From: a virus
Reading direction: 5' to 3' (one strand)
DNA length: 22,760 bases
IMG/VR virus record: IMGVR_UViG_3300031857_001486
Coordinates: 1 to 22,760 of that record
Numbering within the stretch: position 1 is the first letter of the stretch; each line of letters opens with the position of its first letter. Shown in pieces: positions 330 through 22,760 of the stretch. The position numbers and the translations under genes are program-made. The notes beneath the pieces are model-generated. The model worked only from the letters and a program-made list of their open reading frames with translations, had not been told where the DNA came from and ran no database searches.

Positions 330-600
330 CTTCTATAATCGTTTCTAAGGGTATTGTTTTAGTTTGTATTTCTTTTGGTATATAATCTTCTAATTCAATT
401 TGATGGTTCTTAATTCTATTGGCTGCTTCAACTAAGTATCTAAGCAAATCAATGTTTTCTTCTATTGCTTCTTCAATGAATTGAAGAGGGGTTTTTTTAA
501 GATCACGCATTTTAATGCCAAATCTTTCCATTCCTTGTTGATCTCTAACAAGTATTCTGCTTATTAATTCCTGTGTATTTGGGTCATCACTAAGGCTCAT
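322..600 (-). CDS. Putative MazG-like all-alpha protein
   Basis: A 92-aa helical protein. Residues 20-56 have the layout common in phage relatives of the all-alpha NTP pyrophosphohydrolases: a DQQGMERFGIKM segment, then a helix with E43, E44, E47, E48 and D51 (ExxEExxD) leading into LLRYL. In MazG-type enzymes such acidic residues bind Mg2+ and cleave (d)NTPs to monophosphates, which in a phage could adjust the nucleotide pool. The second metal-binding helix is not obvious, so activity is uncertain. The start overlaps the upstream LexA-like gene by 4 bases (ATGA), and an AAAGG ribosome binding site precedes it. It could equally be a non-enzymatic helical protein. Confidence 0.45.
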   Translation of the reverse strand: MSLSDDPNTQELISRILVRDQQGMERFGIKMRDLKKTPLQFIEEAIEENIDLLRYLVEAANRIKNHQIELEDYIPKEIQTKTIPLETIIEDE

Positions 601-812
601 TTTAATACCTTTATACTTCTTGCAGTACCTGGGATGCTAATAACCCATTTACGCTGCTCTAATTGCTTTATAACCTTATGTATATGGCTTCTAGCCTTGC
701 AGTTATTTGCCACCGCTATTTCTGCATACGATGGCGAATAACCATGCTTCCTAATATAAAGCTTAATAAACTTAAATATTTCTAATTGTCGTTTAGTTAA
801 GCCGTATTCCAT
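597..812 (-). CDS. LexA-type winged-helix DNA-binding protein without a peptidase domain
   Basis: The 71 residues match the N-terminal DNA-binding domain of LexA closely in layout: LTKRQLEIFKFIKLYIRKHG, then YSPSYAEIA, a recognition helix region around RSHIHKVIKQLEQR, and the wing residues PGTARSIKVL. The chain stops there, so the S24 autocleavage and dimerisation domain of LexA is absent. It could bind DNA as a constitutive regulator, or compete with host LexA at SOS boxes; both are inference. It sits inside the leftward early operon, two bases after the 100-aa gene ends and overlapping the MazG-like gene by four, so it should be made together with the recombination proteins. Confidence 0.88.
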   Translation of the reverse strand: MEYGLTKRQLEIFKFIKLYIRKHGYSPSYAEIAVANNCKARSHIHKVIKQLEQRKWVISIPGTARSIKVLK

Positions 813-3040: not shown

Positions 3041-3742
3041 TTATTTATGATTTAAATAAGTTCCATCAAACATACAACTAATAGGTTCGCAGTATGTCAT
3101 ATCTTTTATATCCAATTTAATATTTTCAAATATAGTAAATGATTTTAAAACCCATGGCTGTAATATTTTAAATTCTCCATTTGGATATACAAAAGGAATA
3201 CCTAAAATTTTTGCTTTAATTTTTTTAGAATTAATTGTTATTTTGCAAATTTTATTAAATCCCATTGAACTAACTCTTGGAATTGCAACATTATGCGGTA
3301 AGGTATGCTTACCATCCCAAATTAATATAAAATTATGAAAAGCAATAGAAGGGTCATCTACCTGAATTGTTTTAATATCTTTTCTCCAAAATTCTCTTGG
3401 TATGTAAACTTGTTTTTTTTCTTTTCTAACGTCAGTTAAAATAAAGTTTTTATCGGTTTTATAATAAATTACAGATTTTCTTTTTTCATATAATAAATCT
3501 AAAGCATCAACGCCTAAAAACTCAGATACTTTTTCTGCATCATCTACAGATATATCTCTAATATTATTAACCCAACGATTAACTGTAACTTTATCTTTAT
3601 CAATACCGCGAGCAAGTTCGGCTTGGCTTATGCCTTCTTTTTCTAAAAAATCTTTTAATACGCTATTAACCATATTGTTATTTTTAGTTTCTTTAAAATC
3701 TACTATGTTAGTTGATTCGTCTATTATCATTTTTTTTATCAT
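3041..3742 (-). CDS. CI-like XRE-family repressor, no visible S24 protease
   Basis: A 233-aa protein with an XRE helix-turn-helix at about residues 26-85 (ISQAELARGIDKDKVTVNRW, followed by DAEKVSEFLGV). The C-terminal 140 residues are beta-rich but lack the S24 serine motif (G/DSM) and the later lysine, so RecA-stimulated self-cleavage is not expected. It is divergent from the Cro-like gene, the classic layout of a lysis/lysogeny switch. Several ATGs occur near the 5' end (residues 1, 5 and 24); none has a good ribosome binding site, and residue 24 is a plausible true start because the HTH domain begins right after it. Role as maintenance repressor is inferred from fold and position. Confidence 0.8.
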   Translation of the reverse strand: MIKKMIIDESTNIVDFKETKNNNMVNSVLKDFLEKEGISQAELARGIDKDKVTVNRWVNNIRDISVDDAEKVSEFLGVDALDLLYEKRKSVIYYKTDKNFILTDVRKEKKQVYIPREFWRKDIKTIQVDDPSIAFHNFILIWDGKHTLPHNVAIPRVSSMGFNKICKITINSKKIKAKILGIPFVYPNGEFKILQPWVLKSFTIFENIKLDIKDMTYCEPISCMFDGTYLNHK

Positions 3743-3956: not shown

Positions 3957-4160
3957 ATGAACCTAGAAAGCTTTAGAAAAAAAGAAAAACTTACCTACCG
4001 AGACTTAGCAAAATTATTACAGATTGAAGGCGTATCAATTGCAACGACAGCTCTACGATGGTGCAAAGGAGAGAGAATACCTAGAGCCGAGCAAATGAAA
4101 AAAATTTACAGACTAACTAAAGGAAAGGTTACTCCTGGAGATTTCTATGAAGGAAAATAA
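3957..4160 (+). CDS. Cro-like XRE transcriptional regulator
   Basis: A 67-aa single-domain helix-turn-helix protein. The HTH spans about residues 12-45 (TYRDLAKLL, a short loop, TTALRWCKGERIPRAEQMKKIY) and the chain ends with TKGKVTPGDFYEGK, an ending very common in phage Cro/CI-like regulators of Gram-negative hosts. It is the first gene of the rightward operon and is transcribed away from the repressor gene. Expected role: bind the same operators and shut off repressor synthesis on entry into the lytic path. Only AGG at 3949-3951 resembles a ribosome binding site, so translation may be weak. Confidence 0.82.
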   Translation: MNLESFRKKEKLTYRDLAKLLQIEGVSIATTALRWCKGERIPRAEQMKKIYRLTKGKVTPGDFYEGK

Positions 4161-9882: not shown

Positions 9883-10125
9883 ATGGGTGGAGTTATATCT
9901 GCGCCAATAAGAGCAGTTACGTCAGCGTTTAGTAAACCAACTACAGCACCAGCGCCAATAATTACGCCTACAAAAGCAGAAGTATCACAATCGCAAGCCG
10001 CAGCTGCTTCCGCTTTAGATGCTAAAAGACTTGTTAACGAACAGGGTAGAAGTTCAACAATACTTACAGGCTCACTTGGAGCAACAGATACTGTTGATAT
10101 TAAAAAAACATTACTAGGAAGTTAA
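9883..10125 (+). CDS. Small head-module protein, paralogue 2
   Basis: An 80-aa protein, alanine- and proline-rich at the start, ending GRSSTILTGSLG ... IKKTLLGS. The C-terminal 30 residues are clearly related to those of the preceding gene (STILT, K-K-TLLG) while the N-terminal parts differ. The start follows AGGAG and lies one base after the preceding stop; the portal begins one base after its own stop. A tandem duplication followed by divergence is the simplest origin. Confidence 0.7.
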   Translation: MGGVISAPIRAVTSAFSKPTTAPAPIITPTKAEVSQSQAAAASALDAKRLVNEQGRSSTILTGSLGATDTVDIKKTLLGS

Positions 10126-10126
10126 A

Positions 10127-11719
10127 ATGCCAATAAACAAAAAAGCAAAAGATATTTTAGATAGATATAGTTCTTTAAGAACTCAAAGACAAACTTGGGA
10201 GTCGCATTGGCAAGAAGTTGCAGATTATATGCTTCCTAGAAAAGCAGATATTACTAAATCAAGAAGTCAGGGAGATAAGAGAACAGAATTAATTTTTGAT
10301 GGTACAGCAACTCATTCTTTAGAATTGTTAGCAGCATCACTTCATGGAATGTTAACCTCAACTTCATCGCCATGGTTTTATTTAAAATTTAAAGATGACG
10401 AAGTTAATAGCGATGATGATGCAGTACAATGGTTAGAAAAATGTACTAGCTCAATGTATCAAGCTTTTAACCGATCAAATTTTCAACAAGAAATATTTGA
10501 ATTATATCACGATCTAATTGCTTTTGGTACAGCAGCATTATTTATATCTGAAGATAACGAAAACGATTTAAGATTTAAAAATATTCATATTTCAGAAATA
10601 TTTATTACTGAAAGCGAAACTGGAATTGTTGACAGCTTAACTAGAAAATTTAAATTAAAAGCAAGAAACATAACAAACATGTTTCCTAAAGCACAGCTTC
10701 CTAATGAATTAAAAAAATTAATTGAAAATTCTCCACAAGATGATGTTTCAATTATTCATAGTGTTTATCCTAATACAGAATATGCAGAACCAGGTTCATC
10801 TAAAAGATTTATTTCTTGTTATGTTCATGAAGCTTCAGGAGCATTGTTATCTGAAAAAGGATTTGCAGAATTTCCTTATGCAGTTCCAAGATATTTAAAA
10901 TCTTCAAACGAAATTTACGGAAGAAGTCCAGCAATGAACGCATTGCCAGATGTTAAAATGTTAAACACAATGTGTAAGACTTCTATTCGTGCAGCTCAAA
11001 AACAAATAGACCCACCTTTAATGGTTCCAGATGATGGTTTCTTAATGCCTATTAGAACTGTTCCAGGCGGTTTAAATTATTATAGATCAGGAACAAGAGA
11101 CAGAATTGAACCTTTAAACATTGGAGCTAACAATCCAGTTGGTAACCAAATGGAAGAACAAAGAAGAAAACAAGTTAGAGAAAACTTTTTTGTAGATCAG
11201 TTAATTACTTCTCAGGGTCAAACAATGACTGCAACAGAAGTGGTGCAGCGTAATGAAGAAAAAATGAGAATACTTGGTCCAGTTCTTGGCAGATTACAGT
11301 CTGAATTATTACAGCCACTTATTACTCGTTGTTTTAATATTTTAATGAGAAATAAAAAATTTCCAGAAATGCCTGCAATGTTAGGTAATACAAATATTGA
11401 AATTGAATATGTATCTCCATTAGCTAAAGCTCAAAAAACTGGAGAGCTGCAAGCATTAATGAGAGGCTTTGAGATATTTGGAAGTTTACAAAACGTTGCT
11501 CCTGTATTTGATTATTTAGATACAGATGCTGTAGTTACTTACATTAAAGACGTTTTAGGTTTCCCTGCAAAAATTTTGAAAACGAAGTCGCAAGTAGGAG
11601 CAATAAGAAAACAAAGACAAGCTGAACAGCAACAACAGATGCAATTACAACAAATGCAACAAGTTGCTCAAGCAGCTGGTCAAGCCGCTCCCGCTGCAAA
11701 AGTTTTAATGAATGAATAA
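10127..11719 (+). CDS. Portal / head-to-tail connector (T7 gp8-like)
   Basis: A 530-aa portal of the Head-tail_con family. Hallmarks are the N-terminal RYSSLRTQRQTWESHWQEVADYMLP, then FDGTATHSLELLAASLHGMLTS with SSPWFYLKF, and central GRSPAMNALPDVKMLN and KQIDPPLMVPDDG. TMTATEVVQR and LGRLQSELLQPLI come later. The last 45 residues are a glutamine-rich coiled-coil-like tail. A 12-mer of this protein forms the DNA channel at one capsid vertex and anchors the tail. Length matches the family. The 3' end overlaps the next gene by 8 bases. Confidence 0.95.
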   Translation: MPINKKAKDILDRYSSLRTQRQTWESHWQEVADYMLPRKADITKSRSQGDKRTELIFDGTATHSLELLAASLHGMLTSTSSPWFYLKFKDDEVNSDDDAVQWLEKCTSSMYQAFNRSNFQQEIFELYHDLIAFGTAALFISEDNENDLRFKNIHISEIFITESETGIVDSLTRKFKLKARNITNMFPKAQLPNELKKLIENSPQDDVSIIHSVYPNTEYAEPGSSKRFISCYVHEASGALLSEKGFAEFPYAVPRYLKSSNEIYGRSPAMNALPDVKMLNTMCKTSIRAAQKQIDPPLMVPDDGFLMPIRTVPGGLNYYRSGTRDRIEPLNIGANNPVGNQMEEQRRKQVRENFFVDQLITSQGQTMTATEVVQRNEEKMRILGPVLGRLQSELLQPLITRCFNILMRNKKFPEMPAMLGNTNIEIEYVSPLAKAQKTGELQALMRGFEIFGSLQNVAPVFDYLDTDAVVTYIKDVLGFPAKILKTKSQVGAIRKQRQAEQQQQMQLQQMQQVAQAAGQAAPAAKVLMNE

Positions 11720-11921
11720 AGAAATAAACGACAATATAAAAATATTTCAACGAGTTTTTAAATCCCCAGACGGCGAAAAAGTTTTGGAAGATTTAGAAAA
11801 GAGATGCAATGTTTTCACGACTTCTTTTAGTAACGACAGTCATGAAACTGCATTTAGAGAGGGACAACGTAGTGTTGTTCTTTTCATTAAATCAACACTC
11901 AAAAAACAACCAAAGGAGTAA
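11712..11921 (+). CDS. Bbp19-like phage protein
   Basis: A 69-aa protein with the layout of small proteins related to Bordetella phage Bbp19: FQRVFKSPDGEKVLEDLEKRC, then a loop, then ETAFREGQRSVVLFIKSTL. They lie between portal and scaffold in many podophages, exactly as here. Function unknown. The start overlaps the portal gene by 8 bases. Confidence 0.75.
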   Translation: MNKEINDNIKIFQRVFKSPDGEKVLEDLEKRCNVFTTSFSNDSHETAFREGQRSVVLFIKSTLKKQPKE

Positions 11922-11925
11922 ATAA

Positions 11926-12783
11926 ATGAGTAGTGAAATACAGGCAACACAAACGGAACAGCAAACGATTGTGTCTGAAGTACCTACAACTAATGCTGCG
12001 ACAACAACACCAACTTCAGTAGACTGGAGATCAAGTTTACCAGAAGAATTAAAATCAGAAAAATCTTTATCTAGTATTACAGATATTGCTGGTTTAGCAA
12101 AAAGTTATGTGCATGCACAAAAATTAATTGGCGCTGATAAAATTCCAGTTCCAAATAAACATGCAACTGAAGATGACTGGAACGCAGTATATGAAAAACT
12201 TGGTAGACCAAAATCAGCCGAAGAATATAAATTAAATGTTCCTGATAATATTAAGTCAGATGAAACAGGTATTAAAAACTTTTCATCTACAGCTCATAAA
12301 TTAGGATTACTTCCTAGACAGGCAGAAGGTATTTTAAAATACTATTCAGATTTATCTGCAGCCGCTATGAATGATGCCAACTCAAAAGCAATGACTGGTA
12401 GAAAAAGCGCAGAAGAAAACCTTAAACAAGAATGGGGTGCTGCATATAATCAAAAATTAGAAGCTGCTGGCAAAGTATTTAAAGAATACGTTGGTGCAGA
12501 TTATCAAAATCTAATTTTACAAGATGGAACAAAACTTGGAGATAACCCAGCAATTGCTAAAGCGTTTGCTAAAATAGCCGAGTCTTTAGGAGAAGATAAG
12601 TTAGTGTCTAATACTGGACCAAATTATATGACTCCAAATGAAATTCAAAAACAACTTAATGAAATAACAGCTCCAGGAACTGCTTATCATAATAAGTATC
12701 ATCCAAATCATGATGCTGCTGTTCAAGAGGCTTTTCAATTAAGAGAGATGCTACATCCTAATAAAATAAAGGCTAAAGCATAA
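11926..12783 (+). CDS. Capsid assembly scaffold
   Basis: A 285-aa protein. The first 30 residues are Thr/Gln-rich and disordered. Next come WRSSLPEELKSEKSLSSITDIAGLAKSYVHAQKLIG and the scaffold-type segment YEKLGRPKSAEEYKLNVPD. A long helical middle follows, and a basic C-terminal tail (HPNKIKAKA) of the kind that binds the coat protein. It directs procapsid assembly and leaves before DNA fills the head. The position before the coat gene and a strong AAAGGAG site support the call. It is separated from the capsid gene by a structured non-coding stretch. Confidence 0.88.
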   Translation: MSSEIQATQTEQQTIVSEVPTTNAATTTPTSVDWRSSLPEELKSEKSLSSITDIAGLAKSYVHAQKLIGADKIPVPNKHATEDDWNAVYEKLGRPKSAEEYKLNVPDNIKSDETGIKNFSSTAHKLGLLPRQAEGILKYYSDLSAAAMNDANSKAMTGRKSAEENLKQEWGAAYNQKLEAAGKVFKEYVGADYQNLILQDGTKLGDNPAIAKAFAKIAESLGEDKLVSNTGPNYMTPNEIQKQLNEITAPGTAYHNKYHPNHDAAVQEAFQLREMLHPNKIKAKA

Positions 12784-12794
12784 TAAAGAATTTA

Positions 12795-12923
12795 CTTGAT
12801 AAAGTTTAATAACTTTATTAAGCGAATAAAATTCGGATAATCGTAAGACCCGATTGGCGCTTTGGAAAGACAAAGCAACGAGAGTTGTAAAATCAAGGAT
12901 TGCGACCCTTACAGGATAATCGT
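12795..12923 (+). ncRNA. Structured leader upstream of the capsid gene
   Basis: Four hairpins can be drawn in this intergenic RNA. The first is CTTGATAAAGTT with AACTTTATTAAG (12795-12806/12811-12822), 12 bp with one G-T and a TAAT loop. Then AATCG with CGATT (12839-12843/12851-12855), GCTTTG with CAAAGC (12859-12864/12871-12876), and CAAC with GTTG (12876-12879/12884-12887), capped by a GAGA tetraloop. GGATAATCGT occurs at both ends (12835-12844, 12914-12923). GC content is above that of the surroundings. No T run follows the first stem, so it is not a standard terminator. A processing, stability or translation-control element for the coat mRNA is plausible. Confidence 0.5.
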
Positions 12924-12970
12924 TCCGCATATTTCATAAAAATAAACAAACAACTAATGGAGACAAATAA

Positions 12971-13843
12971 ATGTCAACTCAAATAACTACAGCTTTCGTT
13001 GAGCAGTATTCTGCCAACGTAACTATGTTAGCACAACAAATGGGTTCCGTACTTCGTTCAGCTGTTGATGTGGAAACAATTAAAGGTAAAAATGCTTTTT
13101 TTGACCAAATCGGTAGCGTAACAGCGCAAGTAAGAAGCTCACGACACGGATCGACACCACAATTGGACACGCCTCACTCGCGTAGACGAGTTAGCTTAGC
13201 CGATTATGAATGGGCTGATCTTATAGATGACCTAGATAAAGTAAGAATGTTAATTGACCCAACTTCTGCCTATGCAAAAGCTGCTGCTGCTGCAATGGGA
13301 AGAGCTATGGACGATGTTATCATTACTGCTTTAGGTGGTTCAGCAGACACAGGCGTTGCCGGTGGTACAGCTGTTGCACTTCCTTCAACTCAAAAAGTAT
13401 CTACTTCTGCTCAAGCAGATGGTTCTGGTTTAACAATTGCTAAATTAAGATCTGCAAAATATATCTTAGATAGCAACGATGTTGACCCATCAACACCTAG
13501 ATACATTGTAGTTAGTCCAAAACAAATTCAAGATTTGTTAGCGACTACAGAAGTAACTTCAAGCGACTTCAACACAGTTAGAGCTTTAGCAACTGGTACT
13601 TTAGATTCTTTCTTAGGATTTAAATTCTTAGTTTCTAACAGATTAGCATTAGCTAATACTGATGACAGACTTGTGTACGCTTTTACTGCTGATGCTATTA
13701 AATTAGCAATCGGTAAAGATGTTACAGCGAGAATAGATGAGAGAGCAGACAAATCGTATGCTACTCAAGTTTACTACTCTATGGCAATCGGAGCTACAAG
13801 AATGGAAGAAAAAAAGGTAGTTGAAATACCTTGCGACGAATAA
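12971..13843 (+). CDS. Major capsid protein
   Basis: A 290-aa coat protein, resembling the Phage_capsid_2-type coats of short-tailed phages, presumably HK97-fold. Visible features include the N-terminal TAFVEQYSANVTMLAQQMGS helix, an RRRVSLADYEWADLIDDLDKVRMLIDP segment, a helix rich in alanine (YAKAAAAAMGRAMDD), a central TPRYIVVSPKQIQDLL, and the C-terminal ATRMEEKKVVEI. Position after scaffold and before the tail genes, a GGAG ribosome binding site, and the strong terminator just downstream all suit the most abundant virion protein. Arg codons and GC content rise near the 5' end (codons 50-75), consistent with high expression but not proof. Confidence 0.92.
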   Translation: MSTQITTAFVEQYSANVTMLAQQMGSVLRSAVDVETIKGKNAFFDQIGSVTAQVRSSRHGSTPQLDTPHSRRRVSLADYEWADLIDDLDKVRMLIDPTSAYAKAAAAAMGRAMDDVIITALGGSADTGVAGGTAVALPSTQKVSTSAQADGSGLTIAKLRSAKYILDSNDVDPSTPRYIVVSPKQIQDLLATTEVTSSDFNTVRALATGTLDSFLGFKFLVSNRLALANTDDRLVYAFTADAIKLAIGKDVTARIDERADKSYATQVYYSMAIGATRMEEKKVVEIPCDE

Positions 13844-14684: not shown

Positions 14685-16667
14685 ATGGCTAAAGCATTAT
14701 TAGCTGTTCCTAGCTTTACTGCTGGAGAACTATCTCCACGCATGGAAGGTAGAACAGACTTTCAAAAATATTATTCCGCAGGAACAATTATTGAAAATTT
14801 TGTTGTTCAGCCTCATGGTCCAGTAACTAGACGACCAGGAACATATTTTGTTAAAGAAGTAAAAGACAGTACAAAAAAAACTAGATTAATACCTTTTGCT
14901 TTTTCTACAACACAAACTTACATTTTAGAATTTGGCAATCAGTATATTCGTTTTTATAAAGATAAGGGTCAAATTCAATCTGGCGGTTCTGCATACGAAA
15001 TTGCAACTCCATATTTAGAAGCAGAATTATTTGATATTAAATTCGCTCAATCAGCAGACGTTATGTACGTTTGTCATAAAAATTATCCTGTAAAAAAATT
15101 ATCAAGAACCGGTCATACAGCTTGGACTTTAACAGATGTTAATTTCACTAAAGGTCCCTACATGGCTGAGAATTTAACAACGACTACAATTGCAGCTTCT
15201 GGAACAACTGGCAGCATAACATTAACTTCAAGCGCAGCTATATTTGCAAGCACAGATGTTAATAGATTAATTAAGTTAAATGGTGGTCATGCAAAAATTA
15301 CAAATTTTACAAATACAACAACTGTAACTGCCACAACAACTGTTGATCTTACAGCAACTACAGCAACAACTGCTTGGTCTTTAGGATATTTTACAAGTGT
15401 AAATGGTTATCCATCTACAGTTTCATTTTTTGAACAACGTTTAGTATTTGGCGGTTCTACTTCATATCCACAAACACTTTGGTTTTCTAAATCAGGAGAT
15501 TATGAAAATTTTGAAAGTGGGACTGATGATGACGACGCAATGACTTATACAATTGCATCAAATCAAGTTAATGCAATTACTTCTTTAAAAGCAACACGAA
15601 CATTAATTGTAACTACAACAGGTGGAGAATTTACAGTAACTTCTGGAGCTACCCAAGATGCAGTAACTCCAACAAATTTAAATATTCGTAAACAATCAAA
15701 TTATGGAGCTGCTTATGTTGATGCTCTATCAATTGGTAACCAAACTTTATTTTTACAAAGAGCAAAAAGAAAAATTAGAGAACTTGCATATAATTTTGAT
15801 TCTGATGGTTACTTAGCGCCGGACTTATGTATTTTATCTGAGCATATTACTGATAGTGGTATTGTTGCTATGGATTACCAACAAGAACCTTTCAGCATTG
15901 TTTGGTGCGTAAGAACAGACGGAGTTTTAGTTGGAATGACTTACAACAGAACTCAAGACGTTGTTGCTTGGCATAGACAAATATTTGGTGGTTCATTTAA
16001 TGGTGGTAATGCAGTTTGTGAAAGTGTTTCAGTAATTGATGGAGTAGCAGGAGAAGATGAAGTTTGGTTAATTATTAAACGTACAATTAACGGAACTACA
16101 AAAAGATATATAGAATATTTAACTGATTACGATTTTAATAGTAGCTTAACGCAGTTTCATTTTCTTGATAGCGGTCTTTCTTATTCAGGCGCAGCAACAA
16201 GTACATTAACAGGTTTAGATCATTTAGAAGGTCAAACTGTTTCATTAATTGTAAATGGAGCAACTCATCCAACAAGAACTGTAACAAGTGGCTCTATTTC
16301 ATTAGAGAGAGAAGCTACAACTGCAAAAGTTGGTTTAAATTATGTTTCAACACTTCAAACAATGAGATTGGATGAAGGATATAAGGGAACAGATCAAACT
16401 AAAACAAAAAGAATTTTTGACGTTACTGTAAGATTTTACGAAACAGTAGGAGCTAAGATTGGTCCAAACGCCAATACATTAGATGAAATACCATTTAGAG
16501 ATAGTTCCGCTCCAATGAGTAGTCCGGTTCCATTATTTACAGGAGATAAAGAATTAGAATTTCCTGCTGATTATGGCTCTGATGGATTTGTAATGGTTAA
16601 ACAAGAACAGCCTTTGCCAATGACTATTCTTGCAATTTATCCAAGATTAGAAACGTGGAATGATTAA
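14685..16667 (+). CDS. Tail nozzle (tail tubular protein B-like)
   Basis: A 660-aa protein whose start is characteristic of the podophage nozzle: PSFTAGELSPRMEGRTDFQKY, then ENFVVQPHGPVTRRPGTYFV. It continues with beta-propeller-type segments such as SFFEQRLVFGGS and FLQRAKRKIRELAYNFDSDGY. A later part reads GLDHLEGQTVSLIVNG and VGLNYVSTLQTMRLDEG, as in many relatives. An extremely Thr/Ala-rich block at about residues 160-230 looks like an added beta domain. It forms the distal tube through which DNA leaves. The end overlaps the gp13-like gene by 8 bases. Confidence 0.92.
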   Translation: MAKALLAVPSFTAGELSPRMEGRTDFQKYYSAGTIIENFVVQPHGPVTRRPGTYFVKEVKDSTKKTRLIPFAFSTTQTYILEFGNQYIRFYKDKGQIQSGGSAYEIATPYLEAELFDIKFAQSADVMYVCHKNYPVKKLSRTGHTAWTLTDVNFTKGPYMAENLTTTTIAASGTTGSITLTSSAAIFASTDVNRLIKLNGGHAKITNFTNTTTVTATTTVDLTATTATTAWSLGYFTSVNGYPSTVSFFEQRLVFGGSTSYPQTLWFSKSGDYENFESGTDDDDAMTYTIASNQVNAITSLKATRTLIVTTTGGEFTVTSGATQDAVTPTNLNIRKQSNYGAAYVDALSIGNQTLFLQRAKRKIRELAYNFDSDGYLAPDLCILSEHITDSGIVAMDYQQEPFSIVWCVRTDGVLVGMTYNRTQDVVAWHRQIFGGSFNGGNAVCESVSVIDGVAGEDEVWLIIKRTINGTTKRYIEYLTDYDFNSSLTQFHFLDSGLSYSGAATSTLTGLDHLEGQTVSLIVNGATHPTRTVTSGSISLEREATTAKVGLNYVSTLQTMRLDEGYKGTDQTKTKRIFDVTVRFYETVGAKIGPNANTLDEIPFRDSSAPMSSPVPLFTGDKELEFPADYGSDGFVMVKQEQPLPMTILAIYPRLETWND

Positions 16668-17106
16668 TATTATTCCTTTTAAATCAGCTCATGCTGAATA
16701 CATTTTATCACAAGAGTTAAACGATAAAAAATTAGAGTTAGCGCCACAACATAAAAAATACGCAATGTATTTAGAATATGAAAATGCTTCCTTTACAGCA
16801 ATTGTAAATGGCAAGCCAATTGCTGCAGGCGGAATATTTATTCTTTGGGACAATGTTGCCGAAGGATGGGTTTTAGCAACAAGTGAAATTTGGAATTACA
16901 AATTAACAATGGCTAAAATTTTTAAAAAAAGAACAGACGTATTAGTAAAAGAAAATAAAATTAAAAGACTGCAAACAGCAGTTAAAGCAGATTTTGAACT
17001 GGGTCATAAATTTGCACAATTTTTAGGATTAGAAAAAGAGGGATTAATGAAACATTATGGTCCCGATGGTTCTGATTACATTAGATATGCGAGGATAATC
17101 AAATGA
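16660..17106 (+). CDS. gp13-like protein with GNAT-type fold
   Basis: A 148-aa protein resembling T7 gp13 and the related GNAT-like phage proteins. It has FTAIVNGKPIAAGGIFILWDNVAEGWVLAT, a strand-turn-strand core as in acetyltransferases, then a helix TDVLVKENKIKRLQTAVKADFELGHKFAQFLG and the GLMKHYGPDGSDYIRYARI ending. In T7, gp13 is needed for building the internal core although it is not retained in the mature head. Whether any acetyl transfer occurs is unknown. The order nozzle, gp13, gp14, gp15, gp16 is preserved here. Confidence 0.82.
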   Translation: MINIIPFKSAHAEYILSQELNDKKLELAPQHKKYAMYLEYENASFTAIVNGKPIAAGGIFILWDNVAEGWVLATSEIWNYKLTMAKIFKKRTDVLVKENKIKRLQTAVKADFELGHKFAQFLGLEKEGLMKHYGPDGSDYIRYARIIK

Positions 17107-17558
17107 GTTTTGTAGGAGATTTATTAGGCGGACAAGCAGCGCGTAAAGCAGCAGATTATAATGCTAGTTTAATAGAACGTGATGCAAAGTTAAAAGAACA
17201 AGAAGGCGATCAAGCTTGGAAGGTTTATGAGCAATTTGATTTGCCAAGATTTAACGATTCAGCAGAAGCAGCAACTGGTGCTGCAAGAGCTAGTACAGCA
17301 GCAAGAGGCGTTGATGTAGGTTCTGGTTCAGCTTACGAAATTGTATTAGAGAATGAAATTAACATGGAACGCGACAGAACCATGATGAAGTTTAATGCTC
17401 AAAACGCAAAAGATAGAAAATACAATGAAGCAACAAACGCAAGAGCAGAAGCTGCAATTCAAAGATACAAAGGTCAAGTAGCACAAACAGCAAGTTATTT
17501 TAATGCTGCTAGTAGTTTGCTTGGAAATTACAACTCTTGGCAAAAGGCAAAAGGATAA
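17103..17558 (+). CDS. Internal virion protein, gp14-like
   Basis: A 151-aa protein with the alanine/glutamate-rich helical character of T7 gp14-type ejection proteins: NASLIERDAKLKEQEGDQAW, RASTAARGVDVGSGSAYEI and ATNARAEAAIQRYKGQVAQTAS. It begins with a short hydrophobic FVGDLLGG. In T7, gp14 is ejected first and forms the outer-membrane part of the DNA conduit. The start overlaps the gp13-like gene by ATGA, and the next gene follows after three bases. Confidence 0.82.
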   Translation: MSFVGDLLGGQAARKAADYNASLIERDAKLKEQEGDQAWKVYEQFDLPRFNDSAEAATGAARASTAARGVDVGSGSAYEIVLENEINMERDRTMMKFNAQNAKDRKYNEATNARAEAAIQRYKGQVAQTASYFNAASSLLGNYNSWQKAKG

Positions 17559-17561
17559 TTC

Positions 17562-19700
17562 ATGGCTATTAAAATATATCAATCACAAATAAGACCAACT
17601 GAACAAATCTCAGAAGTAGCTTCTACTCCTGGAATGAGAATTGACCAAGAGACAGCTCAAACAATTGGTAAATCAGTTAGCAGGTTTGGAGATACTGCAT
17701 TTAATACTTATGTAGATATTGAAAAAAGAAAATCAGAAAACGAAGCTCTACAAGAGAGAGAAAAATATTTAGTAGGAGATAAAGAAAAAGGCGTTAAAGG
17801 ATTAACTGAAATACGAGAAGAAGCTTCTTTGTATGCTGAGCCAACTGAGGCAAAAAAATTCTATAATGAACAGTTTGAATTATTAAAAAATAGCGTTGGC
17901 GGAGATTATAAATATTCTTTTACAAAGGATAAATTAAATAACTATTTAGATAAACAAAAAATAGAAGATTTAAACCACGTTGGTATTCTTGCTACACGAA
18001 ATTTTATTTCTAATACACAAGAGACAGAAAAAAAATATTTAGAAAATTTAAACAAAAAAGTTGTTTATGGAGAAACTCAAGAAGAAGTAGATATGGCTAA
18101 ATCTACCTTTGAAGCTAGAGTTAACTCAGATGAATTTAAAAACATATTTGGAAAAAATACTCAAAAGGTACTTGATGGTTATTATACTGATAGAGATTTT
18201 TATACTGCCAAAAGAATGGAAGATAAGGAATTTGGTTCTGGTTTAGAGTTTGCAAAGAATAGTAAATATTTAGGAGTAGATAGATACGAACAAATTAATG
18301 CTTACAATAAAACGCAGATGGCAATTGTTAAAGCTCAAAATGAGCAAACAGTTTCTACACTTGGTAATGAAGCGGACAATTATATTATACCAAATAGAGA
18401 AGCTTTAAAAAAAGCTGAGGAAACAGCAGTTAAAACTAAAGATGCTACTTTATTAACTAAGATAAATGAAATTAAAGATAAGACTGCTTTTCTTACTGAG
18501 TTTAAAAATAAACCTAGAGAAGATTTAAATAAATTTTTAGACGAGGGTCAAAAGATTTTACAAGCACAACAAAGTGTTACTAAAGATGATAAAGGAAATA
18601 TTATTTCTGTAGCACAAGGTGCAGACCCAGCCTTATATAAAAAAGTAAAATTTGCTCAAGATTATTTAAATAAATTAAATACTGATTTAGAAAAAGATTC
18701 TTTAACTACAGCTAATAAAATTGGTATTCACAACATACCCTCACTTAATACTGCAACGTTTTTAGCAAATCCTGGCGATACAGAAAACCAAGCTATCTTT
18801 GCTGCACAAGTTAGAAATAGAACTGCACAAGCTCAGTCGGTTGCTCAATGGTATGGAGTTAAACCTCAGTATTTTACTCAACAAGAAAAAACAGCTTTAA
18901 CTGATTGGTTAAACAATACTACAAATCCAATTTTAGTTAAAAATGTAACTGCAACTTTAGTTGCAGGTTTTGGAAATAAAGCTGATGAAGCATTTAAAGA
19001 AATATCTAAAGACAATAAAATCTTAGGTCATCTTGGTGGATTGCTTTTAGTTAGTAACAACGAAAAAGCTGCAGATGATCTTTTAAAAGGTAGAAAATTA
19101 ATTAAAGATGGTCAAATAAAAGTATTTTCGGACGATGATGTTTCATTTCAATCGTGGAAAAGAAATAACAATAAAATATTTTATAACAATCCAGATACTT
19201 ATAATAGTTCTTTAGAGGCTGCTAAAGCAATTTATATTTCAAGAAAATACGACAAAAGCAAAGACACAAGTGTTTTTAATTCTTCAGATTTTAAAGAAGC
19301 TTTTGAAGAAGCAGTTGGAAGAAACGGCAAAAATGGCGGAGTAGATAATTCATTAGGGTCAGACAATCCTTTGGTTATTCCAGCCTGGATGAAGAACGGA
19401 GATTTTTCTAAAGTTGTTAGCAAATTAAAATCAGACCCAGCTTTATTAAGCAAAGCTACAGGGGGAGATTTGCCAATTACTTCAGATATGAAACCTGCAA
19501 AATTATTTGAAAGCGGAAACCCTACTTTTATTAATGTTGGTTATGGAAAATATATTGTTGCAAAAAATGGTCATCCTTCACAAACTGGAAACCCAGGATA
19601 TTTATTATCAAATAAATTTGATAGCGCAAAAGCAGGAAGTCAACAATATTTTGTTATAGATTTAAATAAAATTCAATCAGAAATTCTTGGGAGTAAATAA
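17562..19700 (+). CDS. Internal virion protein, gp15-like
   Basis: A 712-aa, very charged, mostly helical protein with no signal peptide or membrane helix. Position between the gp14-like and the giant last gene, and a length close to T7 gp15 (747 aa), support the call. Sequence similarity to gp15 itself is not evident by eye. In T7, gp15 and gp16 form the periplasmic tube and motor-like complex that pulls DNA into the cell. The final part is less charged and has GYGKYIVAKNGHPSQTGNPGYL, possibly a small beta module. The stop codon shares a base with the start of the next gene (TAATG). Confidence 0.75.
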   Translation: MAIKIYQSQIRPTEQISEVASTPGMRIDQETAQTIGKSVSRFGDTAFNTYVDIEKRKSENEALQEREKYLVGDKEKGVKGLTEIREEASLYAEPTEAKKFYNEQFELLKNSVGGDYKYSFTKDKLNNYLDKQKIEDLNHVGILATRNFISNTQETEKKYLENLNKKVVYGETQEEVDMAKSTFEARVNSDEFKNIFGKNTQKVLDGYYTDRDFYTAKRMEDKEFGSGLEFAKNSKYLGVDRYEQINAYNKTQMAIVKAQNEQTVSTLGNEADNYIIPNREALKKAEETAVKTKDATLLTKINEIKDKTAFLTEFKNKPREDLNKFLDEGQKILQAQQSVTKDDKGNIISVAQGADPALYKKVKFAQDYLNKLNTDLEKDSLTTANKIGIHNIPSLNTATFLANPGDTENQAIFAAQVRNRTAQAQSVAQWYGVKPQYFTQQEKTALTDWLNNTTNPILVKNVTATLVAGFGNKADEAFKEISKDNKILGHLGGLLLVSNNEKAADDLLKGRKLIKDGQIKVFSDDDVSFQSWKRNNNKIFYNNPDTYNSSLEAAKAIYISRKYDKSKDTSVFNSSDFKEAFEEAVGRNGKNGGVDNSLGSDNPLVIPAWMKNGDFSKVVSKLKSDPALLSKATGGDLPITSDMKPAKLFESGNPTFINVGYGKYIVAKNGHPSQTGNPGYLLSNKFDSAKAGSQQYFVIDLNKIQSEILGSK

Positions 19701-22700
19701 TGTCGTTTTACCAGGACGAAGATCAATCGTTAGCAACAGTTAATGATACATCAAAGTTAGCTCAAAGTGTTCCAGGAGCCGGAGAAGTTTTTAAAGCTGC
19801 ATGGGTTGCCTCAGGCAAATCAATGTCAACAGCTTCTGAGTATTGGAATGAAACAGAGCAATATGGAAACATAAAAGAAATTGCAAAAAAATATAATTTT
19901 GATTTATTAAATCCTCATTTAATTGCTGAACCTGTATCTTTAGATGAAACAAATTATAATGTTGATGAAAATAGTTTTCCAGGAACGCATACTAAAGAAC
20001 AAAAGATTACAGAATTTCATAAACAATTAGATGAATATAAATTTCAAAACCCACAGTTTGCTGATGAGCTTAAACAAAAAGGATTAGACAGTAGAGAGTC
20101 ATTATTAAATACTATTAAAGTTGACGCTCAACAATCTTGGAATAATGCAGAAGAGCTTTATAGAAAAACTAATAAATGGGGAGCTGTAGGTTATTATGGA
20201 GCGTTGGCTGCAAGGGTAACAGTTGGAGACCCAGTATTTGCACCATTGCTTCCTTTAACTGTAGTTGCGCCATATTCAACAAGTGGTCTTTCATTTCTTC
20301 AGGCAGCTGCACGAGTTGCAAAAATTGAAGCCGTAATTGGTGCTACACAAAACGGCGCTCTTGAGGCAATGACAATAAACTATCAGCAAGAATTAGGATT
20401 AAAAGAACCTGGATTTGCAAACGCTGTAAAAGATGTTGCTTTTGCAACAGGGGTTGGTGCTGTTGCAGGGGGTACTTTGGGACCAGTAATTTACGGAGCT
20501 GGCGTTGGAATTACAAAAGGTATTACTAAAATTCCTAAAGCTTATGAAATTAGTAAAGAAGGATTAGATTATTTAGGAGCAAGATTACAAAGATTAGAGA
20601 ATGGTAAGTTAGATGAAATTTATACTTATGTAACAGACAAGTTTCCAAATTTTAAATCTTATGAAGCAGATACATTGTCAAATTCTGCAAGATTTAATGT
20701 TGATGACAATACTTTAGTTGATACTCCACAAGCAGTTCGTGAACATGAGTCAAGAACAACAGCTGCCTTAAATAGTGTTGTTAATGATGCTCCACTTAAT
20801 ATACCTGAAACAAGTGTTAATCCTGTATCGCCAGTAAAATTTCAAGAACAAGTATTTAGTCATTCAAGCGTTAAATTATTAAAGCCAAACGAAATAGATT
20901 TTGATGCAAAAGCTTTTCAATACAAAGGAGAAGTAGATGCTTCAGGAGTATCATCAAAACTAAAAGACGTAAAAGACTGGAACGATTACGCTGCAGGAGC
21001 GTTAATGGTTTATCAAAACAAAGAAGGTAAATATTTTGTTATTGATGGACACCAAAGACTTGGATTGTCTAAAAGATTAACCAGTCAAGGAAAAGACATT
21101 AATTTAGTTACTAAAGTTATAAGAGAAGCAGACGGCGTTACAAAAGAAGAAGCAATGTTTAGTGGAGTTGTTGCAAACATTATTAATGGAACAGGAACTT
21201 CTTTTGATGCAGCTAAAGTATTAAGAACATTTCCTCAATATAATATTGATACGTTGAAGAGAAGTTTCCCTATGGGACAAAGGATGGCAAAAAATACTGC
21301 CGGACTTGTAAAACTTTCTGATGATGCTTGGGGACTTTTTGTAAGTAAGAATGTTAATGAAGATTTAGCAGCAAGAGTTGGAGAAGCATTTACTAAAGAA
21401 GCTCAAGTTGGAGTTTTATCTGGTTTAAGAAATAGAAAATTTGCTACACTAGCAGAGATGGATAGTACCATTGCATCTATTAAGGGTATGCAATTAAGAG
21501 TTACAGAACAAACTGATTTATTTGGTACACAGTTTATTAAAGATTATGCAATTATTGAAAAGGCAAAATTAATACAATACGTTTCTCAAAACGCTAAAAG
21601 ATTAAAATTAGGATTTGAAAGTGCAATAAAAAATGATAAAGAATTAACAGCGGCTGGTAATGTATTAGATCAAACGCAAAACTTAAAAGCAGCAATAGAC
21701 AATGAAAAAATCACAGAATTTATTAACACAGTCGGAAATAGAGTTGGACAATACGCAGATGAACTCAACGCAGCAGCTCTCAAATTCAGAACCGATCAAG
21801 CAGGAGCAAGACTTGATGCAGTCAACGCAACAAGAGCAGCACTTACAAGAGGGGATTTTGAAAGCACAAAAGTTAGCAGAGGAAATGACTTTGCTGAATT
21901 TAAAGATACGACACCTAGGTTACCTGAAAAACCAGCAGAAGTTATAGACCGCAAATTTGCAGACGTAGAAAATAATATAAAAGTTGTAACAGACGCTAAT
22001 AAGAAATTAGACGATCAAATTTTTGGAGATGCTGGAACTACTCCTGTTAAAACAGATGAAACTGTTAATGCTGTAGACAATGCTGCAATAGATGCAATAG
22101 AACGTAAAAAATTAGATTTAACACCAGAACAAAAAACAGTAGTTAATAAGATTGACGAAATTGTTAATGGTGGAAAAATAACTGAGCAAGACGTTTTAGA
22201 TATAAGAAATTCTGCCGAGGTTCAAAAGGCAATAAATGAACGAGCAGATTATTATAGTAAAAACCATACAGACGTTGCACCAAATTTTGTTAATGGAAAA
22301 TTTACAGACGAATATTTAAATAATAAGACTTATACTTTTAACGGCAAAGAATATAAAGGCGTTGATAATATAGTTAATGCTATTTATGGAACAGGCTCAA
22401 AAAGTAAAGAGCGTATAGCAATTGTTATTACTGGTTTGCCTGCTTCAGGAAAATCAAGATTATCTTCTCAGTATAAACAAAAAATTAATGGAACAATTGT
22501 TGATACAGACTTCTATAGAGAAGTAATACCAGAATATAATAATGGCATAGGCTCAGCTGCAGTACATTCAGAAGCTAAAGTTATATTTAAAAAAATGTTT
22601 GTTAAAACATTAACAAATGGAGATAATATAATATTGCCAACACTTGGTAGAAATGAAACTCCATTTATTAATATTTTAGAGTCTTTAAAAGAAGCTAATT

Positions 22701-22760
22701 ATAAAACTGCAGTAATTAGATTAGATGCAGATTTAAATGTGGCTAAATTAAGAAATTTTA
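19700..22760 (+). CDS. Giant gp16-position virion protein with ParB/DdrB-like and Zeta-toxin-like kinase domains (3' end outside window)
   Basis: Open without a stop from ATG 19700 (MSFYQDEDQS) to the window edge, 1,020 codons. Residues 160-271 hold a Gly/Ala-rich hydrophobic region (FAPLLPLTVVAPY and GVGAVAGGTLGPVIYGAGVGI). Residues 391-490 match the ParB/DdrB-like fold: KLLKPNEIDFDAKAFQYKG, then VIDGHQRLGLSKRL (DGHQR at 449-453). A helical, low-complexity linker follows. From 906 on there is a P-loop kinase of Zeta-toxin type: Walker A GLPASGKS (912-919), VDTDFY with D937, IPEYN, VHSEA with E958, LPTLGR with R984, then the start of a strand and R-rich helix. Zeta enzymes phosphorylate UDP-N-acetylglucosamine. 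Position predicts a gp16-like ejected core protein; no transglycosylase motif is seen. Such fusions are known as polyvalent proteins. Confidence 0.82.
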   Translation, partial: MSFYQDEDQSLATVNDTSKLAQSVPGAGEVFKAAWVASGKSMSTASEYWNETEQYGNIKEIAKKYNFDLLNPHLIAEPVSLDETNYNVDENSFPGTHTKEQKITEFHKQLDEYKFQNPQFADELKQKGLDSRESLLNTIKVDAQQSWNNAEELYRKTNKWGAVGYYGALAARVTVGDPVFAPLLPLTVVAPYSTSGLSFLQAAARVAKIEAVIGATQNGALEAMTINYQQELGLKEPGFANAVKDVAFATGVGAVAGGTLGPVIYGAGVGITKGITKIPKAYEISKEGLDYLGARLQRLENGKLDEIYTYVTDKFPNFKSYEADTLSNSARFNVDDNTLVDTPQAVREHESRTTAALNSVVNDAPLNIPETSVNPVSPVKFQEQVFSHSSVKLLKPNEIDFDAKAFQYKGEVDASGVSSKLKDVKDWNDYAAGALMVYQNKEGKYFVIDGHQRLGLSKRLTSQGKDINLVTKVIREADGVTKEEAMFSGVVANIINGTGTSFDAAKVLRTFPQYNIDTLKRSFPMGQRMAKNTAGLVKLSDDAWGLFVSKNVNEDLAARVGEAFTKEAQVGVLSGLRNRKFATLAEMDSTIASIKGMQLRVTEQTDLFGTQFIKDYAIIEKAKLIQYVSQNAKRLKLGFESAIKNDKELTAAGNVLDQTQNLKAAIDNEKITEFINTVGNRVGQYADELNAAALKFRTDQAGARLDAVNATRAALTRGDFESTKVSRGNDFAEFKDTTPRLPEKPAEVIDRKFADVENNIKVVTDANKKLDDQIFGDAGTTPVKTDETVNAVDNAAIDAIERKKLDLTPEQKTVVNKIDEIVNGGKITEQDVLDIRNSAEVQKAINERADYYSKNHTDVAPNFVNGKFTDEYLNNKTYTFNGKEYKGVDNIVNAIYGTGSKSKERIAIVITGLPASGKSRLSSQYKQKINGTIVDTDFYREVIPEYNNGIGSAAVHSEAKVIFKKMFVKTLTNGDNIILPTLGRNETPFINILESLKEANYKTAVIRLDADLNVAKLRNF

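Follow-up and report, generated by a model that had tools for sequence, protein, structure and literature searches.

The window analysed here comprises 22,760 bases (positions 1 to 22,760 of IMG/VR virus record IMGVR_UViG_3300031857_001486) and carries at its 3' end a gene for a multidomain ejection-type protein, read as one frame on the plus strand from an ATG at 19700 and open to the last base of the window. The protein combines an N-terminal segment resembling podovirus ejection proteins, a ParB/Noc-fold domain and a Zeta-type kinase; across a large family made up of podoviruses and prophages, the position of the kinase is a cassette slot, bounded on one side by the ParB domain and on the other by a short, conserved tail at the C-terminus. 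The features of the gene are as follows.

19700-22759, plus strand: gene for the multidomain ejection-type protein, with 1020 of its 1163 residues inside the window (the whole gene lies at 10001-13492 of the related locus L003)
19700-20719, plus strand: N-terminal ejection-protein core, about residues 1-340 (hhalign 97-99.6%; phrog_342)
20864-21886, plus strand: DdrB-like ParB/Noc-fold domain with a helix-turn-helix part, residues 389-729 (phrog_1033; AlphaFold2 and Foldseek)
21044-21058, plus strand: DGHQR, residues 449-453, the nucleotide-site motif of the ParB/sulfiredoxin superfamily
22301-22759, plus strand: Zeta-type P-loop kinase cassette, from about residue 868 to about residue 1071, beyond the window (PF06414; Foldseek)
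22433-22456, plus strand: Walker A motif GLPASGKS, residues 912-919, with K918 aligned to K46 of Zeta
22508-22510, plus strand: D937, aligned to the catalytic D67 of Zeta

As the window is an IMG/VR contig, the gene ends where the contig ends and not at a stop. Relatives 85-99% identical to it are encoded on five IMG/VR contigs. An earlier reading made from the sequence alone (the sequence-only reading) had described a single uninterrupted frame from 19700, a description vulnerable to a stop or frameshift just past the window; the rest of the gene was retrieved, and the frame runs on to 1163 residues in both L002 and L003 and to 1162 in L004. The possibility that the frame ends in a programmed frameshift, or that the gene is split there, was also considered and is ruled out by these three contigs, in which the gene ends at this length with an ATGA overlap. 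The overlap in L003 is with the next virion gene, which encodes an 848-residue member of phrog_684 ('virion structural protein', E 5e-149) and is itself followed by a tail fibre gene.

The kinase cassette matches the Pfam Zeta_toxin family (PF06414, curated cut-off 22.3 bits) with an E-value of 3.5e-11 for the part inside the window and with 57.2 bits (E 2.1e-15, residues 902-1071) in the complete protein. Comparison of a profile of 32 relatives with PDB sequences identified Zeta (2.4e-13), PezT (3.3e-9) and the Pnkp1 kinase (2.2e-8), and a Foldseek search with an AlphaFold2 model of the domain (predicted local distance difference test score, pLDDT, 87) returned PezT or Zeta as all of its top eight matches (E 1.5e-9), with polynucleotide kinase next. 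A match to the polynucleotide kinase family phrog_505 was found at 2e-7, and PADLOC and NCBIfam gave nothing beyond weak P-loop matches. The Pfam profile, the PDB-sequence profile search and the fold search thus agree on the Zeta-type kinase fold proposed by the sequence-only reading.

In streptococcal Zeta, residues K46, D67, E116, R158 and R171 are essential, while E100 is partly dispensable (PMC6356619). We counted residue conservation in 64 distinct cassette copies that accompany a ParB domain; K918 and D937 are each kept in 64/64, R1022 in 63/64 and R1028 in 62/64, and these correspond to K46, D67, R158 and R171, respectively. The two essential arginines fall just outside the window. The order of Zeta residues proposed from the sequence alone therefore stands for GLPASGKS and D937, but not for E958 and R984, which are present and yet are neither Zeta E100 nor an essential arginine: E958 is invariant in the family and aligns with Zeta Y94, and R984 aligns with R120, a varying position, as is that of T118. 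The ratio of nonsynonymous to synonymous substitution rates (dN/dS) ranges from 0.06 to 0.54 over pairs of relatives, mostly 0.06-0.2 and highest in the window's own pair, which indicates that the kinase domain is under purifying selection. A second Zeta subtype, with GGGGASGKG and an aspartate at the E116 position, is found in the same slot in L079, L088 and L098.

The domain that precedes the kinase matches phrog_1033, a family of ParB-like partition proteins, with an E-value of 3e-6. Direct comparison with PDB sequences was not significant (Caulobacter ParB, E 0.46), so the identity of the domain was decided by fold search. All Foldseek matches of its AlphaFold model (pLDDT 82) at an E-value of 0.001 or below are ParB/Noc chains, with KorB and Spo0J next, and the matched region includes the DNA-binding part. 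The weak Caulobacter alignment places GHQR on the GERR motif and the conserved asparagine on the ENxQR motif. Across 40 relatives, domain residues Q19, K21, G62, H63, Q64, R65 and N105 are invariant, as is DGHQR as a whole, while the cyanophage and S31-C1 versions have NGHNR. The aspartate or asparagine ahead of GH agrees with the DdrB-like ParB proteins described by Iyer et al. 2017 (PMC5512222), and the active-site arginine and Asp/Asn expected at the end of strand 2 are in place. The sequence-only reading had placed DGHQR at residues 449-453 in a ParB-type setting; the position is exact, and Foldseek confirms the fold. The same domain also occurs in giant proteins of 1484-3912 residues from other marine phages (L007, Ruegeria phage 45A6; L009, P-SCSP1f; L010, S31-C1) and in families phrog_21 and phrog_10691. 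The part of phrog_21 matched here is the ParB domain, and its label 'portal protein' is likely a fusion or mislabel.

Scans with the single protein returned near copies only, and the wider group was therefore reached through the neighbouring family phrog_684. This family scan yielded 80 loci, 67 of which have ParB or Zeta in the adjoining gene: 34 combine ParB with Zeta and 21 combine it with a second module, 11 have ParB alone and one has Zeta alone. Pfam missed the second module, which is RelA/SpoT-like; when its profile was compared with PDB sequences, the (p)ppApp synthetase Tas1 came first (1.4e-19), followed by SAS and RelA enzymes. Kinase and synthetase occur together in none of the 67 loci (probability about 1e-9 under independence, a figure that ignores relatedness). 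Other occupants of the slot are a GNAT domain in L080 (Pfam) and, after ParB, PBECR1 and PBECR3 RNase domains in prophage-like loci of Aureimonas and Phenylobacterium (L107, L128, L133); cassette-free members are 774-832 residues long. The same architecture is present in bacterial genomes, with synthetase types in Bradyrhizobium, Methylobacterium (among them L122 of M. jeotgali), a Methylophaga metagenome-assembled genome (MAG) and others, and the Zeta type in a Polaribacter MAG (L118). When plasmids were searched with a member of the RelA type, a single weak match was obtained. L086 carries the kinase cassette on a 714-residue protein with no ParB domain, which indicates that the two modules are separable.

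The strongest part of the case is the clean exchange of cassettes between close relatives. L036 carries the kinase and L043 the synthetase; their flanking DNA is 83-89% identical on both sides and the proteins are 90% identical up to residue 718, where DNA similarity ends; it resumes 140 bases before the end of the gene. The pairs L033/L050, L047/L055 and L047/L056 display the same clean swap between flanks that are 82-92% identical. When the cargo was mapped as a label onto a tree of phrog_684 proteins, at least 21 changes were required, where the minimum possible is two; this is a quick tree with long branches flagged, and the comparisons of close pairs do not depend on it. L079 and L115 (the Methylophaga MAG) are neighbours in the tree and carry different cargo. 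The placing of a Tas1-like synthetase or an RNase in the same slot by close relatives suggests that selection favours a variety of effectors directed at ATP or RNA.

Profile comparison (hhalign) shows the N-terminal core to be homologous to a set of proteins that includes phiV10 p19 (99.6% over 306 columns), as well as to SI2 (98.9%) and VP5 gp17 (97.3%); against phiV10 p19 by itself, the comparison fell short of significance. The annotation of phiV10 p19 describes it as similar to epsilon15 gp16. The T7 gp16 profile phrog_342 is matched, downstream of its transglycosylase part, by VP5 gp17 (2e-10) and by HTVC203P gp46, and the N-terminal parts of the proteins studied here match it at E 0.018 in the L022 copy of the window protein and at 3e-8 in the relative L043. 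Assignment to the slot of T7 gp16 is accordingly supported by sequence and not by position alone, and these matches lend weak to moderate support to homology between the core and the part of T7 gp16 that follows its transglycosylase domain. No lytic transglycosylase domain was found by Pfam profile searches in either the window protein or the complete protein. In L124, an M15 peptidase domain lies N-terminal to the ParB domain (about residues 507-587) and perhaps substitutes for the missing transglycosylase in passage through the wall. In L112, from an alphaproteobacterial MAG, the core, ParB domain and phrog_684 protein are fused into a single frame of 2812 residues.

The sequence-only reading had found no Epsilon-type antitoxin gene. 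The next virion gene starts 60 nt or less away in 36/36 kinase-bearing genes, which confirms that none is adjacent, and in 26/28 synthetase-bearing genes; this leaves no room there for an antitoxin or immunity gene. The adjacent antitoxin that defines the Epsilon-Zeta system is thus absent, an observation that concerns the locus and not the rest of the genome.

Upstream of the gene, the order is terminase, portal, capsid, tail tubular A, tail tubular B, gp13-like, gp14-like and a 712-residue gene in the place of gp15.

10127-11719, plus strand: portal, 60-62% identical to those of HTVC010P-type pelagiphages
14685-16667, plus strand: tail tubular protein B-like (phrog_376, E 1e-230)
16660-17106, plus strand: gp13-like internal virion protein, acetyltransferase-like (phrog_308, E 1.7e-8)
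17103-17558, plus strand: gp14-like internal virion protein (phrog_418, E 4e-15)
17562-19700, plus strand: gp15-like gene of 712 residues, so named by position and size only

The gp13- and gp14-like neighbours named by the sequence-only reading are supported by these profiles; the gp15-like gene, which had no family match in Pfam or PHROGs profile searches, is placed by position. The T7 gp16 slot itself is upheld by synteny, after the gp14- and gp15-like genes and before the tail fibre, together with the homology of the core. HTVC203P has the same gene order, with a 490-residue 'internal virion protein D' in the slot, and the variable island of HTVC010P-like phages contains an internal virion protein (PMC6487183). 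The virus appears to be an aquatic podovirus related to HTVC010P and epsilon15, and by its portal to phages of SAR11. The window also contains divergent CI-like (3041-3742, minus strand) and Cro-like (3957-4160, plus strand) genes and an open reading frame with only a LexA DNA-binding domain (597-812, minus strand), and an integrase match of 27.3 bits (L214, G001:C1:32297-32620) lies on the contig that carries L003, the relative with 99% identity. The CI/Cro-like genes and the integrase match suggest a temperate lifestyle; the virus is probably temperate, though its nearest cultured relatives by portal are HTVC010P-type pelagiphages. A scan of the window found no tRNA and no Rfam family.

With moderate confidence, we interpret the gene product as an ejection (pilot) protein of the gp16 type, from a podovirus related to HTVC010P and epsilon15, with two added modules; one of these would be an injected kinase that acts early on a nucleotide-like substrate. 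In T7, gp16 reaches across the periplasm and inner membrane into the cytoplasm, where DNA is bound by its C-terminal part (PMC8954989). The chain studied here would leave the virion together with the DNA, its N-terminal core joining the envelope-spanning conduit built by the ejected proteins and its ParB/Noc-fold domain binding or clamping the incoming genome on the cytoplasmic side. The kinase cassette, reaching the cytoplasm on the same chain, would then move a phosphate from ATP to a nucleotide-like substrate, and in this way the cargo may slow or reprogram the new host or blunt its defences ahead of any phage gene expression. Part of the C-terminal conduit function probably falls to the product of the next gene (phrog_684). 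As to self-protection, our guess is that the enzyme is inactive inside the core until ejection.

Several points weigh against this interpretation. The position of Zeta E116 is P980 in the window protein, and is proline in 61/64 copies and aspartate in 3/64, which makes activity on the known Zeta substrate doubtful; the phosphotransfer core is intact and the known substrate site is not. The slot proteins of two well-studied marine podoviruses, P-SSP7 gp16 and Syn5 gp45, have no ParB domain, so that neither this domain nor the cargo is required for ejection as such. The N-terminal core had no PDB match by sequence. Packaging in the virion and enzyme activity are predictions, and enzymes bound to the virion could act in assembly only.

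Among the other explanations, the kinase might serve counter-defence or repair, either mending RNA or DNA ends in the manner of polynucleotide kinases or modifying a nucleotide-based signal used in host immunity. In the fold search, bacterial polynucleotide kinase ranks directly behind Zeta/PezT, with supporting matches to Pnkp1 (E 2e-8) and phrog_505; delivery at entry would suit counter-defence and the swapping of cassettes would suit an arms race. Zeta/PezT nevertheless outscore these enzymes in both searches, and the swapped alternatives (Tas1-like, PBECR) are predicted toxins and not repair enzymes, and we regard this explanation as unlikely. Somewhat less credible still is a weapon against rivals, in which the cargo would strike resident prophages, superinfecting phages or nearby cells that are not hosts, a role that has been proposed for the polymorphic toxins of temperate phages. 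The integrase domain on a near-identical contig and the CI/Cro-like genes fit such a role, as do the (p)ppApp synthetases of temperate-phage MuF toxins and the polymorphism of the cassettes between close relatives; polymorphic toxins, however, have adjoining immunity genes, whereas a conserved virion gene comes next in every Zeta case (36/36).

A strict Zeta toxin, injected to phosphorylate UDP-N-acetylglucosamine (UDP-GlcNAc) and so block wall synthesis, we consider improbable. Zeta and PezT are the best matches by sequence and by fold, the counterparts of K46, D67, R158 and R171 are kept, and Iyer et al. 2017 (PMC5512222) proposed that MuF-fused zeta-like kinases weaken the wall. The proline at the E116 position and the variation at those of T118 and R120 speak against it, as does the presence of such kinases in tailed viruses of haloarchaea, one of which joins a related Zeta to ParB. 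Haloarchaea have no murein. The alternative cassettes, moreover, are unrelated to walls. Specificity for UDP-GlcNAc is therefore unsupported, and the wall precursors that the sequence-only reading had offered as a target were not upheld. Finally, we hold it very improbable that the kinase fold has no enzymatic role and serves the ejection core in structure or packaging only. The cassette-free members (774-832 residues) presumably infect, but the catalytic residues are invariant, dN/dS is mostly 0.06-0.2 and swapping with unrelated enzymes is not expected of a structural part.

The preferred interpretation, an ejection protein with added effector modules, places the protein near several known systems. 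Polyvalent proteins are large multidomain proteins encoded beside virion genes and predicted to be injected, with DdrB-like ParB, RelA/SpoT-like, PBECR and GNAT domains; mosaic exchange of their domains was described in Helicobacter prophages, and the zeta-like kinases among them were reported from conjugative elements and as fusions to MuF (PMC5512222). The finding of ParB and a kinase in one protein beside virion genes bears out the earlier suggestion of a polyvalent protein, and here too several effector-type domains share one late-gene protein; the difference is that the kinase sits with ParB on a gp16-type podovirus ejection core, in one defined slot that is swapped between close relatives. 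Neither a peptidase, the processing metallopeptidase domain being common but not obligatory in polyvalent proteins, nor a MuF domain was matched by Pfam in the complete protein. MuF polymorphic toxins with a (p)ppApp synthetase (Apk2) are linked to temperate phages and adjoin immunity genes (PMC12226406). They share with our system a head-associated phage carrier and exchangeable toxin domains that include (p)ppApp synthetase, but here the carrier is an ejection protein with ParB, the cassette is internal and not C-terminal, and no immunity gene adjoins. Epsilon-Zeta/PezAT shares the fold, the Walker A lysine, the catalytic aspartate and the two essential arginines, and differs in having E116 where proline stands here, in its adjacent antitoxin gene and in not forming part of a virion-type protein. 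The ejection proteins of the T7 gp16/epsilon15 type share the gene order and a homologous N-terminal core segment; in the present protein no lytic transglycosylase was found, and ParB and an effector cassette have been added. Halovirus HCTV-5 gp114 ('zeta toxin and ParB nuclease domain protein') also unites a Zeta-type kinase and a ParB motif in one viral protein, but in reverse order, with Zeta first, near a MuF-type gene and in a virus of an archaeal host; no phrog_684 gene is annotated in the stretch around gp114. Our literature search found no paper in which an ejection protein of the gp16 type carries effector cassettes that can be exchanged, which is not proof of absence. Polyvalent and polymorphic effector proteins are thus already known, and what is added here is most likely the swappable slot on a gp16-type ejection core.

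A broader and more tentative proposal, which we rate as possible, is that a large set of aquatic podoviruses, together with related prophages, uses the ejection protein as a delivery platform. The ParB/Noc-like domain would grip the genome as a nucleoside triphosphate-dependent clamp, and interchangeable enzymes in the slot (Zeta-type kinase, (p)ppApp synthetase, RNase) would hit the nucleotide and RNA economy of the host before phage genes are read, with no need of an antitoxin because they would be active only on refolding after ejection.

These results suggest that the payload can be exchanged and serves to disarm a cell at the start of infection. If this is true, phages akin to the SAR11 viruses and to numerous alphaproteobacterial and flavobacterial prophages would bring in a ready-made enzyme that takes effect ahead of gene expression. 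The exchange slot, a single site whose cargo is the main difference between close relatives, would provide a simple test system and a natural catalogue of injected anti-bacterial enzymes that have no linked immunity genes, and the ParB-type clamp would be a candidate for how podoviruses hold their DNA during entry.

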